Assembly (NCBI RefSeq): GCF_006442975.2
Contig: NZ_CP083954.1
Location: forward strand, 1,178,001-1,242,000
Source: Mesorhizobium sp. B2-1-1
GTDB taxonomy: Bacteria > Pseudomonadota > Alphaproteobacteria > Rhizobiales > Rhizobiaceae
Length of the DNA stretch: 64,000 nucleotides
Reading direction: 5' to 3'
Below the pieces are notes generated by a model, which was not told where the DNA came from, did no database searches, and was given only the letters and a program-made list of their open reading frames with translations. Below are positions 26,346 through 57,333 of the stretch, piece by piece. The translations under genes were made by a program, and so were the position numbers. How positions within the stretch are numbered: the first letter of the stretch is position 1; each line of letters opens with the position of its first letter.

Positions 26346-26581
26346 AGCCAATCTTCCCACTTTGTGGAAGATGCCGGGCAGCTCAGCGGGGGCAGCGTCC
26401 GCCGACAAATCGAGTTAGGCCTTCCGGGCTGCGGGGGAGGATCTCTCTTGCCGTTCGACGATTCCTCGAGCCACCCTCGCCCAGCTTTTCGTGAATGCGA
26501 GGCAACCTGGCCGGGAGCAGGCAACGATCCTTCGTGCCCCCCCCTTCTGGCCTGCCGGCCATCTCCCCCACGAGGGGAGTT
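26346..26581. repeat. Degenerate pair of inverted palindromic repeats
   Basis: The segment 26346-26397 (AGCCAATCTTCCCAC..., ATGCCGGGCAG...) and the oppositely oriented 26533-26581 (GTGCCCCCCCCTTCTGG..., CCATCTCCCCCACGAGGGG) are diverged copies of the repeat between thiB and thiP. The roughly 135 bases between them show no recognisable gene. These copies fill most of the 485-base gap between ftsH and the Cys-repeat protein gene. Confidence 0.6.
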
Positions 26582-32720: not shown

Positions 32721-32830
32721 CCCTCATCCGGCCGCTTCGCGGCCACCTTCTCCCACAAGGGGAGAAAGATCGGCGCCCGACCTTCTCCCCCGTGGAGAAG
32801 GTGCCTGAGCGAAGCGAAGGCGGGTGGGGT
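32721..32830. repeat. Mosaic of palindromic repeats (RIME-like) between serC and serA
   Basis: Tandem palindromic units are visible: GGCCGCTTCGCGGCC, then CTTCTCCCACAAGGGGAGAA, then CTTCTCCCCCGTGGAGAAGG, ending in the GAGCGAAGCGAAGGCGGGTG tail. This composition is that of the rhizobial intergenic mosaic elements. The tail resembles the sequence inserted in the helicase gene at 54499-54548. Confidence 0.75.
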
Positions 32831-42029: not shown

Positions 42030-43028
42030 ATGCGCACGCTTTTATACGCCCTTGTCTCTGCAATGGTCGTGGTTCTGTCCGGGCCGGCCTTAGCCAAGGA
42101 CAAGCTCACCGTCTACACTTATGAGAGCTTTACCGCCGACTGGGGCCCCGGCCCGGTGGTGAAGAAGGAATTCGAGGCCGAATGCGGCTGCGATGTCGAC
42201 TTCGTCTCGGTTGCCGACGGCGTCGCGCTGCTCAACCGCGTCAAGCTGGAAGGGGCCGCGACTAAGGCCGACATCGTGCTTGGCCTCGACACCAATCTCA
42301 CCGCCGATGCCAAGGCCACTGGCCTGTTTGCGCCGCATGGCGCCGTGACCGGGCTCAATGTGCCGGGCGGCTGGAACGACGACATCTTTGTCCCGTACGA
42401 CTATGGCTATTTCGCCGTCGTCTATGACACGCAGAAGCTGAAGACGCCGCCCAAGAGCCTGAAGGAATTGGTCGAGGGCAGTGCCGACGACAAGATCGTC
42501 ATCCAGGATCCGCGCACATCGACGCCGGGCCTCGGCCTGCTGTTGTGGGTGAAGTCGGTCTATGGCGACAAGGCGCCGGAGGCCTGGGCCAAGCTCAAGG
42601 CAAAGGTCTTGACCGTGACGCCGGGCTGGAGCGAGGCCTACGGCCTGTTCACCAAGGGCGAGGTGCCGATGGTGTTGTCCTACACGACCTCGCCCGCCTA
42701 CCACATGGTTGCCGAGAACACCGAGCGCTACCAGGCCGCTTCCTTCGAGGAGGGCGAATATCTGCAGATCGAGGTCGCCGGCATCACCACGACGGGAGCC
42801 AAAAATCCGCTGGCGGAAAAGTTCATTGCCTTCATGACGGGGCCGAAATTCCAGGATGCCATCCCCGAGACCAACTGGATGTTCCCGGCCGGCAAGACGG
42901 ACAAGCCGCTCAATCCCGCCTTCGACAGACTGGTCAAACCGACCAAGACCTTGCTGTTCAGCCCCGAGGAGGTCGCGGCCAACCGCAAGGCATGGGTGGA
43001 TGAATGGCTGGCGGTGATGAGCAAGTAG
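42030..43028 (+). CDS. thiB: Thiamine ABC transporter substrate-binding protein
   Basis: A 332-residue periplasmic protein with a signal peptide (residues about 1-20, ending GPALA). The ThiB/TbpA fold shows as [24 protein letters not shown], then [25 protein letters not shown] and [10 protein letters not shown]. It binds thiamine or its phosphates for import by ThiP/ThiQ. The GAAGGAGG ribosome-binding site is strong. A TPP riboswitch lies directly upstream. A 237-base gap with a large inverted repeat separates it from thiP. Confidence 0.96.
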
Positions 43029-43062: not shown

Positions 43063-43222
43063 GCGCCCCCCTCTGTCCTGCCGGACATCTCCCCCACAAG
43101 GGGGGAGATTGGCCGTCACGACGGCTTTCGCCAATTGGCGACGTCACAGGAGAGGGTGGAGCGCTGAAGCAGCCAATCTCCCCCCAAGTGGGGGAGATGT
43201 CCGGCAGGACAGAGGGGGGCGC
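43063..43222. repeat. Long inverted repeat between thiB and thiP
   Basis: Two 51-base arms, 43063-43113 and 43172-43222, are reverse complements with only two mismatches, enclosing 58 bases. Each arm contains its own palindrome (CATCTCCCCCACAAGGGGGGAGAT and the matching right-hand copy). The arms match, in degenerate form, the pair downstream of ftsH. An RNA from this region would fold into a very stable hairpin inside the thiBPQ message. Confidence 0.9.
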
Positions 43223-43265: not shown

Positions 43266-44879
43266 GTGCAGCGCGCGTCTGACCCCCGCATCTCCGCCGG
43301 CATCCTCGCGCTTGCGGCGATCGCGCTGCTGATCGGCGGCGCGTTTGCGGGTCTTCTTTTCGAAGGCGCGAACGATTTCTCCGGAGCCTGGGCAGCCTTC
43401 GATGCTTATCTCCTGCGCGTCGTGCGCTTTACGTTGTGGCAGGCGGCGCTTTCGACGCTGCTGTCGGTGGCGCCGGCCCTGTTCGTGGCTCGCGCGCTGT
43501 CGCGGCATCCGCACTTTCCCGGCCGCGGCTTCATCCTCCAGCTCTTCGCCCTGCCGTTGGCGCTGCCGGCGATCGTGGCGGCGCTCGGCATCCTGGCGCT
43601 CTATGGCCGCGCCGGCTATTTCGCCGGCTTTCTTGGTGCCGTCGGCGGTTACAATTGGCCGGGCATCTATGGCCTCTCCGGCATCCTCGTTGCTCATGTC
43701 TTCTTCAACCTGCCGCTGGCCACGCGGCTGTTCCTCGAAGCGCTGCAAACCATCCAAGCCGACCAATGGCGGCTGGCGAGCCAGCTCGGCATGGGTGCCG
43801 CACCGGCTTTCCGGCTGATCGAGTGGCCGACACTGCGCGCCGCTCTGCCGGGCGTCGCCGGCCTGGTGTTCATGCTCTGCATCACATCCTTCACGATCGT
43901 GTTGACGCTGGGCGGTGGCCCCGGCGCGACGACGCTGGAGGTCGGCATCTACCAGGCGCTGCGTTTCGATTTCGATCCCGCGCGGGCGGTGGCGCTGACG
44001 CTGCTGCAGATCGCGCTGACCTTTGTCGTGGTGCTGGCGTTGACGCGGCTCGGCGCCAACACCACCGGTGACGCCAATCTGCCGGTGGCGCCGCGCCGCT
44101 ACGTCTCGGCCGGCAGGACCGAGACCGCGCTGAATGCCGCGCTCGTCGTGCTGGCCCTTTTGTTCGTCGCCGGGCCGATGACGGCGACGGTGATGTCAGG
44201 CCTCGGCGCCGACCTCGGTCGTCTCGCCGGCGAAGCGGCGGTGCGGCAGGCGACGCTGACCAGCGCCGTGCTGGCTTTCCTGTCGGCGCTGCTGTCGGTT
44301 GCGCTGTCGCTTTCGCTCACCATGGCGCGCCGCGTGCTGGCCCTGAAGCGCCGCTCCGGTCCGCGGACCGTGCTCGAACACGCCACCGACACCGGTGCCG
44401 GCTTCGTCCTGGTCGTGCCGCCCATCGTCATCGGCGCCGGCTGGTTCCTTCTGCTGCGCCATGTCGGCGATGTCTTTGCCATAGCCCCGGTCATGGTCGT
44501 CACTGTCAATGCAGTCATGGCGATGCCTTTCGCCATCCGTGCCATCCGCCCCGCCTATGATGCGGCGAGCGAGCGCCATGAGCGGCTCTGCGCGCTTCTG
44601 GGAATAGCGGGCTGGGCCCGGTTGCGGCTGGTCGACTGGCCCTCGCTGCGACGGCCGCTGGCCACCGCCTTCGCGTTTGCCATGGCGCTGTCGCTTGGCG
44701 ATCTCGGCGTCATCGCATTGTTCGGCAGTGATTCCGTGCAGACCTTGCCCTACCTTCTCCTGGCGCGCATGGGCAGCTACCGTACCGAGGACGCCGCCGG
44801 CCTGGCGCTGCTGCTCGGTCTGGTCTGCCTTGCGCTTGTGGTGGCGGCGAGCGGGCTGGGAAGGGGAGAACGAGACTGA
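43266..44879 (+). CDS. thiP: Thiamine ABC transporter permease
   Basis: A 537-residue inner-membrane protein with about twelve helices in two fused BPD_transp_1 halves. The EAA motifs are [31 protein letters not shown] and the corresponding [28 protein letters not shown]. This duplicated architecture is that of ThiP. The start is GTG at 43266, because no ATG gives the first helix; a longer leader is not possible through the repeat. It overlaps thiQ by one base (TGATG). Confidence 0.94.
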
Positions 44880-54018: not shown

Positions 54019-57000
54019 CTATTTCTTCAGCTGGTCGCGCAAAGCGGCGAGCTTGGCGAAGGGAGAGTCGGGATCGAAGCGCACCGGGCGCTCCTCGCGC
54101 GGTTTTGCCTGAAACGAGGGTTTGCCGCCTTGCGGGCCGCCCTTGCCTTCCGGACTGCCGCCCGGCCGGCCCTCACGGCGGTCAGAACGCTCGCCCTGCG
54201 GCTTTCCCTCCCGCCGTTCCCCGCCTTCGCCTTGCGGCCTGGGCTTGAACTTCGAGCGATCGAAACGCGGCTTGCCGGCGCCATCGCGGCGCCCTTCATG
54301 GGCGGGCCGGGTGCCGGGCTGGCCGACAGCGGCATCCGCCGGGGCATCGGAGCGCGCCGCCTGGCCGTTGCGCGGCCGGGCGCGGTTCTCGTGGTGACGG
54401 TGACGAGGCCGCTGGTCGAAGCGGCCCTGCCGCCACAACAGGATCGGCTTAGGCTCTTCGGCTTCCGCAGCGGGTCCCTGTTGGGGAGCGTCGGCGCTGT
54501 CCCCCTCCTCGCCTCGCTCCGCGATCTCCCCCGTCGAGGGGGAAGTGAGAGCGTCGGCGCTTTCGGCGGCAGGAGTCTCAGGCACGGCTTCTGCTACAGA
54601 CGCAACCTCTTCCGTAGCTTCGGCTGGAGCTTCGGGTTGTTCTTCCGCAACAGTTTCGGCCGGTTCCGCAATGGGTTCAGCAGGAATTTCGACGGCGGTC
54701 TGGGCAGTCGCAGTTTCCGGATCTTCCGCTGATGTCTCCTCAGGCGTGTCCGTCGCAGCCGCCTCCGCCGCCTTGGCCTGCTCGGTGCGCGCGGCCTCTT
54801 CCGCTGCCAGCTTGGCCGCCACGGCTTCCCGGGCGGCATTGTCCTGCGCTTCCAGCCGTGCCTTGATTTCGGCCGCCGGCTTCGGCTCGGCACGATAGCC
54901 AAGACCTTTCAGGATTTCTTCCATGTCGTCGGCCGTGGCGCCGAGAATCGACATCATCGGCGGCGTCACCATGAAAGACTGGCCATCATAGGCGCCATCC
55001 GGACGCTGGCCGAGGCCGGGCTTCCAGTTGGTCGCCGGGCGGATCAGGTCGGCCAGCCGTTCCAGAATGTCGATGCGCACGGCGCGGCGGCCGAGATTTC
55101 GGTAGCCCGCAAGCTTGTAGAAGGCCTTGTCGAAAGCCGGATCGATGACCACCGAGGTGCGGCCCGATGCCAGCGCATGGACGACGTCGCCGAAGCCGAG
55201 CTTGTCCTTGCCATCGTTTTTCAGCGCCCACAGCAACGTCACCAATCCCGCGGGCGCCGGCTTGATCAGCGCCGGCACGAAGACATGATAGGCGCCGAAG
55301 CGCACGCCCAGCCGGCGCAATGCCGCGCGGCCTTCCTGGTCGAGCGACTTCATCTCCTCGGCGATGTCGCGACGATTGATAAGGCCGAAATTCTCGACCA
55401 GCTGGAAGGCAATGCCGCGGCCGATACCCGATATCTGCTCGGCATTCTTTAAATCGACCAGCGGCTTCAGCAGGGATTCGATCTGGAAATTGACGAAGCG
55501 CTCGGCGCGCGCGGCGACCTTGTCACGCGCCGGGCCGGTCAGCTGTTCGTCGGCCAAAAGCACCAGGCGCGGCTTCAGCGCGTCTTCACCGGCAACCAGA
55601 GTGCCGATCGGCGCGCCGATCCAGCGCAGCGTGCCGTCGGAACCGAGCGCGATGTCGCCATTGGCGCATGCGCCGAAGCGTTCGGCGCGTGCCTCGAACT
55701 CCGCCGCCAGCGCCTTCTGGGCGGCCGCGCGCACGGCCTTGGCGTCTTCGCCGCCAGCGCTCTGATCGGCGGTGAAACGGAACCCCTGCAACTCGCCGAC
55801 ATGGTGGCCTTCGACGAGGACGGTTCCGGTTGGGCTTATTTCGGCTTCAGGCATGGTATTTTCTCTAAGGCGCCGCATGAGGACGGAAGTCCTGCGGTCT
55901 ACGAAGCGTTTCGTCAACCGCTCATGCAGCGCATCCGACAATCTGTCTTCGATTTCGCGCGTCTTTTCCTGCCAGTGTGCCTGATCGGCCAGCCAGCCGG
56001 GCCGGTTCGACACGAATGTCCAGGTGCGGATCTGGGCGATGCGATGCGACAGCGTATCGATGTCGCCCTCGGTGGTGTCGGCGCGGCGCACCTGCTCGGC
56101 CATGTAATTCTCGTCGACATGGCCATGCCTGGCGAGGTCCATGTAGATCGACGCAATGAGGTCGGCGTGCTGGGCCGGCGCTATCTTGCGGTAGTCGGGG
56201 AGCGCGCAGGCCTCCCACAGCAGCGCGACGCGCCTTGCGTCGGTGGCGAGCGCCCTGATGTCCTCGTCACGCGACAGGTGCTCAAGCGCCTGCGCATCGA
56301 CTGCCGGCAGCGCACGGGTCAGGCCTTCCACCGGGGCATTGGTCTCGATCGAGCGCTTCAGCGCGTCGAGGCTGGCGAAATTGAAACGCGCTGTGCGCCA
56401 CTGCAGAACCTTCACGGGGTCGAAGTCGTGGCTTTCGATCTTCTTGACCAATTCCTCGTCCAGCGGGTCGACCTGGCCGGTGACGCCAAAGGTGCCGTCG
56501 CGCAGGTGCCGGCCGGCGCGCCCGGCGATCTGGCCAAGTTCGGCCGCCGTCAGGTTGCGATACTGATAGCCGTCGAACTTGCGGTTCTGGGCGAAGGCGA
56601 CATGGTCGAGATCGAGGTTAAGGCCCATGCCGATGGCATCGGTGGCGACGAGATAGTCGACGTCGCCCGACTGAAACAGCGCCACCTGGGCGTTGCGGGT
56701 GCGGGGCGAGAGCGCGCCAAGCACGACGGCCGCACCGCCCTGCTGGCGGCGGATCAGTTCGGCGATGGCATAGACCTCGTCGGCGGAGAAGGCGACGATC
56801 GCTGTGCGCCGGGGCAAGCGGGTCAGCTTCTTCGAACCGGCATAGGCCAGATGTGACAGCCGCGGTCGTGTCACCACCGAGACGCCTTTCAACAGGCGCT
56901 GCAAGATGCCGTGCATGGTGGCGGCGCCGAGCAGCAGCGTCTCCTGGCGGCCGCGCAGATGCAGGATGCGGTCGGTGAAGATGTGGCCGCGCTCGAGGTC

Positions 57001-57333
57001 CCCCGCAAGCTGCACCTCGTCGATGGCGACGAAGGCGGCATCGGTCTCGCGCGGCATGGCTTCGACGGTACAGACCGAATATCTGGCGCCTGGCGGCTGG
57101 ATCTTCTCCTCGCCGGTGATGAGCGCCACCTTGTGGGCACCGACCTTTTCGCAGACGCGGGTGTAGACCTCTCGCGCCAAGAGCCTGAGCGGCAGGCCGA
57201 TGATGCCGCTTTCATGCGCCACCATGCGCTCGATGGCGAGATGGGTCTTGCCTGTGTTGGTCGGCCCAAGCACGGCAGTCACGTCGCGACCCGATAGGAT
57301 CAGCGGCTCGGTGGGTTTCGGATGGATGTTCAT
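54019..57333 (-). CDS. Suv3-like DEAD/DEAH-type RNA helicase with long disordered tail
   Basis: 1104 residues. Helicase motif I is LGPTNTGKTHLAIERM (about 22-37), motif II is AIDEVQLAGD in the DEVQ form of mitochondrial Suv3/MgpS relatives, and motif VI lies in QIAGRAGRHLRDGTFGVTG. A C-terminal Suv3-type domain extends to about residue 800. Residues about 800-1104 are Ala/Glu/Pro- and then Arg/Gly-rich, probably disordered. At residues about 929-946 a palindromic repeat is inserted in frame between two copies of SADA. Upstream lies a 0.7-kb region with clustered GANTC sites. Role inferred: RNA unwinding and degradation. Confidence 0.9.
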   Translation of the reverse strand: MNIHPKPTEPLILSGRDVTAVLGPTNTGKTHLAIERMVAHESGIIGLPLRLLAREVYTRVCEKVGAHKVALITGEEKIQPPGARYSVCTVEAMPRETDAAFVAIDEVQLAGDLERGHIFTDRILHLRGRQETLLLGAATMHGILQRLLKGVSVVTRPRLSHLAYAGSKKLTRLPRRTAIVAFSADEVYAIAELIRRQQGGAAVVLGALSPRTRNAQVALFQSGDVDYLVATDAIGMGLNLDLDHVAFAQNRKFDGYQYRNLTAAELGQIAGRAGRHLRDGTFGVTGQVDPLDEELVKKIESHDFDPVKVLQWRTARFNFASLDALKRSIETNAPVEGLTRALPAVDAQALEHLSRDEDIRALATDARRVALLWEACALPDYRKIAPAQHADLIASIYMDLARHGHVDENYMAEQVRRADTTEGDIDTLSHRIAQIRTWTFVSNRPGWLADQAHWQEKTREIEDRLSDALHERLTKRFVDRRTSVLMRRLRENTMPEAEISPTGTVLVEGHHVGELQGFRFTADQSAGGEDAKAVRAAAQKALAAEFEARAERFGACANGDIALGSDGTLRWIGAPIGTLVAGEDALKPRLVLLADEQLTGPARDKVAARAERFVNFQIESLLKPLVDLKNAEQISGIGRGIAFQLVENFGLINRRDIAEEMKSLDQEGRAALRRLGVRFGAYHVFVPALIKPAPAGLVTLLWALKNDGKDKLGFGDVVHALASGRTSVVIDPAFDKAFYKLAGYRNLGRRAVRIDILERLADLIRPATNWKPGLGQRPDGAYDGQSFMVTPPMMSILGATADDMEEILKGLGYRAEPKPAAEIKARLEAQDNAAREAVAAKLAAEEAARTEQAKAAEAAATDTPEETSAEDPETATAQTAVEIPAEPIAEPAETVAEEQPEAPAEATEEVASVAEAVPETPAAESADALTSPSTGEIAERGEEGDSADAPQQGPAAEAEEPKPILLWRQGRFDQRPRHRHHENRARPRNGQAARSDAPADAAVGQPGTRPAHEGRRDGAGKPRFDRSKFKPRPQGEGGERREGKPQGERSDRREGRPGGSPEGKGGPQGGKPSFQAKPREERPVRFDPDSPFAKLAALRDQLKK
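54486..54561. mobile_element. In-frame palindromic element with 13-bp flanking direct repeat
   Basis: The 13-base sequence GAGCGTCGGCGCT occurs perfectly at 54486-54498 and 54549-54561, bracketing a 50-base GC-rich insert (54499-54548). The insert contains a palindrome, TCCCCC-CGTCGA-GGGGGA, and a CTCGCCTCGCTCCGCGA segment resembling the tail of the serC-serA repeat. Insert plus one repeat is 63 bases, exactly 21 codons, so the helicase frame is preserved. This looks like a Rickettsia-palindromic-element-type insertion with target-site duplication. Confidence 0.75.

Follow-up and report, generated by a model that had tools for sequence, protein, structure and literature searches.

A probable in-frame remnant of a two-module palindromic repeat in a Suv3-like helicase gene of Mesorhizobium

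Rhizobium-specific intergenic mosaic elements (RIMEs) are rhizobial, contain two large palindromes in a mosaic layout, and are described as intergenic. Palindromic repeats lying in frame within genes were first described from Rickettsia and Wolbachia; accounts of intragenic REPs in some other species came later (PMC2229807, PMC10969869, PMC3733652). The RPEs of Rickettsia are described as dispersed palindromic repeats of about 105-150 bp that occur in frame in many unrelated conserved genes, with a recurring peptide (PMC2229807, PMC10969869). Intragenic REPs, tagged GTAG or CGTC, are short palindromes, often in inverted pairs, found in helicase, tRNA synthetase and other genes; REP dimers encode 20-30 amino acids and clusters 43-82, and that account covers REPs of Bradyrhizobium, with the word Mesorhizobium absent from its main text (PMC3733652). 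The intragenic MITEs ERIC, YPAL and Correia are small non-autonomous repeats for which in-frame gene fusion is possible, and they are reported to show target-site duplications (PMC2229807).

We have analyzed a window of 64,000 nucleotides from Mesorhizobium sp. B2-1-1, comprising positions 1178001-1242000 of contig C1 in a two-contig genome of 6.18 Mb (here G000). A segment within its Suv3-like helicase gene is very probably the shortened in-frame remnant of a two-module REP/RIME-like repeat that lay in the helicase linker of a Mesorhizobium ancestor, one of a kind that is dispersed, tolerated, trimmed and swapped.

Like the RPEs and the Wolbachia palindromic elements, these repeats are palindromic, dispersed and in frame in several unrelated conserved genes, and orthologues without the insert exist (GlyS, hydantoinase and E2-1, together with 46 of 78 helicase loci, which offer no clean empty site). 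They are GC-rich and appear to be of another sequence type than the RPEs, and they differ in the combination of a free-living rhizobial genus, two inverted modules and several types that exchange at one site. With RIMEs as generally described they share the two palindromes, the mosaic layout and the rhizobial host, but here copies also lie in genes. Unlike the tagged REPs they have no conserved GTAG or CGTC at the hairpin feet; in the flanks of 100 listed hairpins, both strands taken together, each motif reaches at most 4/200 at any position. They differ from REP/RAYT systems in that a search of this genome with PF01797 (Y1/RAYT transposase) gave 0 matches at E<=0.001, where 5 of 14 control genomes were positive. 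In contrast to the MITEs, no target duplication is seen in the helicase, or in GlyS and hydantoinase as judged by eye.

The kind of element is already known from Rickettsia RPEs and intragenic REPs, whereas this genus, these families and the turnover at fixed sites appear to be new. No description of in-frame repeats in Mesorhizobium was found by title or abstract in a literature search that left most subscription journals outside its reach, and a search with the repeat peptide strings returned no paper.

The helicase gene and its 50-bp segment

The features of the window are as follows.

54019-57333, minus strand: Suv3-like helicase gene, an ORF of 1104 aa that stays open, assigned by Pfam and orthologues
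54499-54548, minus strand: probable remnant (50 bp) of a family-1 palindromic repeat, left module, 39/46 nt identity
54524-54543, minus strand: surviving hairpin TCCCCCTCGACGGGGGAGAT, short; the hairpin pattern was modelled on this site
54486-54498, minus strand: 13-mer, downstream copy in gene orientation, probable remnant of the element's spacer
54549-54561, minus strand: 13-mer, upstream copy in gene orientation, found in carrier alleles only
43087-43195, no strand assigned: palindromic repeat with two hairpins, related in type, lying in the gap that separates two plus-strand ORFs (42030-43028 and 43266-44879)
26563-26579, no strand assigned: single hairpin of the family pattern (G000:C1:1204563-1204579)
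32721-32830, no strand assigned: palindromic repeat of similar layout and different sequence, by eye

The helicase ORF scores 94 bits with DEXQc_Suv3 and 39 bits with Helicase_C in Pfam. Within it, as an earlier note on this DNA had described, there are two perfect copies of GAGCGTCGGCGCT (plus strand), and no further copy occurs on either strand of the window. They flank 50 bases, and their start-to-start spacing of 63 nt is exactly 21 codons; the frame is indeed kept, with the minus strand reading ...ESADALTSPSTGEIAERGEEGDSADAPQQ... here. The site lies in an Ala/Glu-rich C-terminal linker, about residues 815-960, judged by eye. An AlphaFold model of the helicase (23 sequences) has a mean pLDDT of 41 and is too poor to show disorder of the linker.

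The palindrome ascribed to the segment is present only in part. There is a hairpin at 54524-54543, but it is short, and its 0 mismatches to the hairpin pattern follow by construction because the pattern was modelled on that site. The whole 76 bases, 13-mers included, fold no better than shuffled sequences (z -0.56).

Other Mesorhizobium helicases have an intact two-module element of ~147 bp in the corresponding position. In the form exemplified by locus L032 the left module consists of CTCACCTCCCCC..GGGGGAGG, a second hairpin and GGGTGGGGG, and is followed by a spacer of about 40-45 nt and then by the inverted module, with the end GGGGGAGGGTGAG. The element translates as LTSPSMGEVAARSDAGGGD...PPTPALRADPPHKGEGE, and it folds well beyond its shuffles, with z -7.22. 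The 50 bp of the window are identical to the left modules of L032 and L034 at 39/46 nt. Alignment to six carriers gives scores of 48-57, against 28-40 for the best of 300 shuffles, and the top score of 57 compares with 28 for the best of its own shuffles. When the intact L032 element was compared with the genome by BLAST, its positions 82-100 were identical to window positions 54483-54501 at 19/19 nt. This stretch of spacer covers the second 13-mer, and the region of the first copy, 54549-54567, matches the spacer at 89%. Taken together, the left-module match and the spacer identity indicate that the window allele comprises a left module and a spacer remnant, the right module having been lost. 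The 50 bp would thus not be a mobile unit, as had been proposed, but one module of a longer element; from its sequence the window copy appears to be a worn remnant from which most of the palindrome has gone.

An origin within the linker itself, by slippage or local duplication of low-complexity Ala/Glu sequence, with the likeness to the repeat arising by chance, could draw on the variable length of this linker among orthologues and on the fact that a perfect pair of 13-mers 13-150 nt apart is not rare, five distinct pairs being found in the 64-kb window. Yet the left-module score stands above those of all 300 shuffles, on which ground we reject chance slippage, and the element matched in the orthologues is plainly a palindrome of two modules, one half of which recurs at 98% identity at another place in the window's genome. 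We regard this origin as very improbable.

Carriers and non-carriers among the helicase orthologues

We compared 80 helicase loci from Mesorhizobium and some Pseudaminobacter, Aminobacter and Corticibacterium, the closest of them being 91% identical over the first 2430 nt. Two of the loci (L080 and L094) stop before the site, leaving 78 informative. An in-frame family-1 repeat or a clear remnant is present in 31 of these, 28 found by motif search and three (L051, L075 and L077) by eye; one locus (L099) has another type, and 46 have none, a number that may include overlooked decayed remnants. The 13-mer is absent from all 46 non-carriers at <=1 mismatch, and L069 alone has it at 2 mismatches. 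Two or more 13-mer-like copies (<=2 mismatches) are present in 22 of the 31 carriers, some of them within the element, and the carrier L043 has the 13-mer at the place of the upstream copy. From these comparisons we take the 13-mer repeat to belong to the carrier allele itself rather than to represent target duplication.

These data bear directly on the proposal that a 50-bp mobile palindrome had inserted and duplicated a 13-bp target. The perfect 13-mers on either side and the in-frame 63-nt period speak for it, but the second 13-mer falls within the spacer that separates the modules of the longer element, and at <=1 mismatch none of the 46 loci without the element has the single-copy 13-mer expected of an empty allele. 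For these two reasons target duplication was rejected, and we consider it extremely improbable. Filled and empty alleles of GlyS and hydantoinase likewise reveal no obvious target duplication by eye.

None of the 46 non-carriers has a clean empty site; there is instead an Ala/Glu-rich sequence of similar length, and the element may therefore have replaced sequence on arrival. Partial deletion is seen in several carriers. By eye, L072 and L056 retain a single hairpin in which the left arm runs directly into the element's right end; L067 and L073 are cut at other points. The linker of L099 has a repeat of another type close to where other species have family 1, and this points to an independent second insertion.

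Carriers are scattered on a quick helicase gene tree, with 16 changes of state, at least 12 of them forced by supported branches. Such scatter could reflect one insertion that was lost many times, repeated insertion, or recombination. Recombination between species could have spread both carrier and non-carrier alleles of the helicase, so that the relic was acquired rather than trimmed within the lineage. Carriers and non-carriers are interleaved among close relatives, which speaks for this, but an allele like that of the window occurs in 0 of the 78 informative loci. Such acquisition is possible though rather unlikely, and it is compatible with descent from a trimmed two-module repeat.

Dispersed copies and in-frame host genes

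Scoring 40 of 86 candidates in the window's genome gave at least 63 matches to the intact L032 element, the top one being 98% identical over 50 nt; other genomic copies of the full element thus exist. The window's own 76 bases have at least 41 matches including the self-match (40 of 56 candidates scored), and those elsewhere in the genome are short hairpin matches, mostly of 22 nt. The in-frame origin from a dispersed palindromic repeat proposed by the earlier note agrees with these copies and with the 46 orthologues lacking the element. The resemblance it drew between the tail of the insert and the repeat at 32721-32830 is one of architecture, both having a hairpin and a GAGCGARGCGARG-like tail by eye; other repeats are closer.

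The pattern CTCCCCN{3,7}GGGGAG has 149 matches in the genome and its reversed control 0; among the 100 matches listed, four are clearly another hairpin, with a GT..AAC loop. The copies inspected have a common layout of hairpin, second hairpin and G-rich tail, often in inverted pairs. Family and type names were assigned by eye, and some elements resemble mosaics of shared modules. No Rfam family gathering score was reached with L220, L117, L111 or L004, and the repeat peptide of E2-2 had no match at E<=1e-3 in a plasmid collection by tblastn with the low-complexity filter on.

Copies lie in frame in nine more Pfam-recognised genes of this genome. Coordinates are those of stop-to-stop ORFs on C1, and only hosts with a Pfam match were kept; most other open frames around copies were judged by eye to be spurious GC-rich ORFs, and three loci (L266, L267 and L275) were excluded because their repeat either coincides with the N terminus or precedes it.

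3743337-3744746: dehydrogenase E2-1, repeat between lipoyl and E3-binding domains
1376838-1378250 (G000:C1; L220:239-1651, plus strand): dehydrogenase E2-2, repeats in both linkers
2524674-2528516: hydantoinase A/B fusion, repeat from residue about 246 and a short remnant near 861
4645080-4647419: GlyS, insert within residues 306-362
3090295-3092130: CobG-type gene (Pfam NIR_SIR; the CobG name is our reading)
1956742-1959633: NasA-type reductase (Pfam molybdopterin oxidoreductase; the NasA name is our reading)
327676-328761: XdhC, in-frame repeat
208217-210817: HrpB, in-frame repeat
1656703-1657692: PhnJ, repeat in the C-terminal tail

The inserts of GlyS and hydantoinase are absent from the nearest PDB chains, residues 306-362 of GlyS lying opposite just 7 residues of 7yse_C and residues 242-292 of hydantoinase opposite 8 residues of 7hk5_A. 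Alleles of both genes were read in 20 genomes hand-picked out of 31. GlyS is filled in four and empty in 16, and 14 of the empty alleles have RPQG at the site, from which it follows that a few codons were replaced. Hydantoinase A is filled in 11, five being clean empty alleles (GELG[AE]GPRLMFM) and four having short odd sequences. Seven of the filled alleles have a two-module repeat of one broad type, L334 a half element and L339 a single hairpin, and in the remaining two, L342 (G028) and L343 (G008), a second sequence is nested in the repeat, with the frame open over the stretch read. The short odd sequences (L335, L336, L337 and L340), some of which have an AATCCCC edge as in filled alleles, may be excision footprints.

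E2-1 is the third host gene with empty sites; 4 of 30 loci are filled, by family 1 in the window's genome and by another type in L196, L209 and L211. In one E2-1 region (L227, G031) the E2 frame shifts inside a repeat insertion, which is either a frameshift or an assembly error. The nearest PDB chains to E2-2 are pyruvate dehydrogenase E2. Its two linkers consist of palindromic repeats with near-perfect hairpins that are predicted to be translated, likewise in L221, L228, L229 and L230; both linkers are occupied in 5 of 7 loci read, L226 having no repeat and L223 none that is clear. XdhC has the family-1 type in L265, L347 and L348 and other types or remnants in L349-L352, HrpB is filled or partly filled by differing sequences in 7 of 7 loci read, and the CobG-type gene, recovered by motif from 5 of 9 loci, has two hairpins in four and a trimmed repeat in L365. 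Different repeat types thus occupy one site across species in E2-1, hydantoinase, XdhC and the helicase (L099).

Reading register and the fate of the repeats

Within host ORFs the left or 19-nt type of hairpin is read TCC-CCC (SP) in 12 of 13 cases and the right type GGG-GAG (GE) in 6 of 7, the exceptions being one hairpin in NasA and one in hydantoinase. The types were assigned after the table had been seen, and two entries were dropped, one a GlyS hairpin that precedes the probable start, the other a cysteine motif native to NasA. It was peptides in the favoured register that first drew attention to GlyS and hydantoinase, although each is also matched at the DNA or pattern level. When 17 distinct complete copies belonging to one family were read on both strands, giving 34 readings per register, the numbers free of stops were 20, 18 and 18. 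They are about equally open, so stops do not explain the preference. A register-neutral sample of 62 elements, from the 100 listed of the 149 hairpins, has 6 inside genes, four flagged by script as in-gene and open (HrpB, XdhC, NasA and hydantoinase) and two in E2-2 added by hand that the flank rule had missed; 11 further elements have one frame on both sides with a stop between.

These observations are consistent with the following course of events. In an ancestor within Mesorhizobium, a two-module palindromic repeat would have entered the helicase's C-terminal linker, a low-complexity stretch. Repeats of this sort are dispersed in the genome in several related types, each module being a GC-rich hairpin with a second hairpin and a G-rich tail and two modules being inverted. 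Copies within genes would persist where length and frame are tolerated, as in interdomain linkers and loops, mostly in the SP..GE register, and would later be trimmed by in-frame deletion or replaced by another type. Frame-breaking insertions would be purged by selection, deletion might proceed by slippage between mutually repeated arms, and types could replace each other at permissive sites through new insertion or recombination. We infer the direction of change (gain versus loss), and would attribute the register to tolerance of the peptide.

The in-gene repeats might alternatively be domesticated, that is, selected as flexible linkers or mRNA hairpins rather than merely tolerated. The occupation of both E2-2 linkers in most loci, the near-perfect hairpins there in the window's genome and the favouring of one register when the others are equally open are in keeping with this, but relatives have empty sites, the type at one site varies by species, and several copies are decaying. 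We consider domestication unlikely.

A stronger reading, offered tentatively and at somewhat less than even chances, is that Mesorhizobium housekeeping enzymes (hydantoinase A, XdhC, HrpB, the CobG-type protein, the E2 linkers, GlyS and the Suv3-like helicase) hold fixed acceptor sites, at which several GC-rich palindrome types are repeatedly inserted, trimmed and exchanged in frame, with one of three equally open registers selected and, in the one genome tested, without a RAYT. If true, this would be an ongoing repeat-driven source of new linker peptides in free-living bacteria. The genus can be cultured and many of its species have been sequenced; with essential enzymes that occur as both filled and empty alleles, and with several repeat types in competition, it would permit direct tests of the neutrality of insertion, of movement without a RAYT and of the building of new linkers.

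Two of the loci excluded from the hosts have repeats directly upstream of signal-peptide-like N termini (L267:1420-3090, plus strand, and L266:458-2257, minus strand). In both, the ATG of SPLEGEM could be the start codon.
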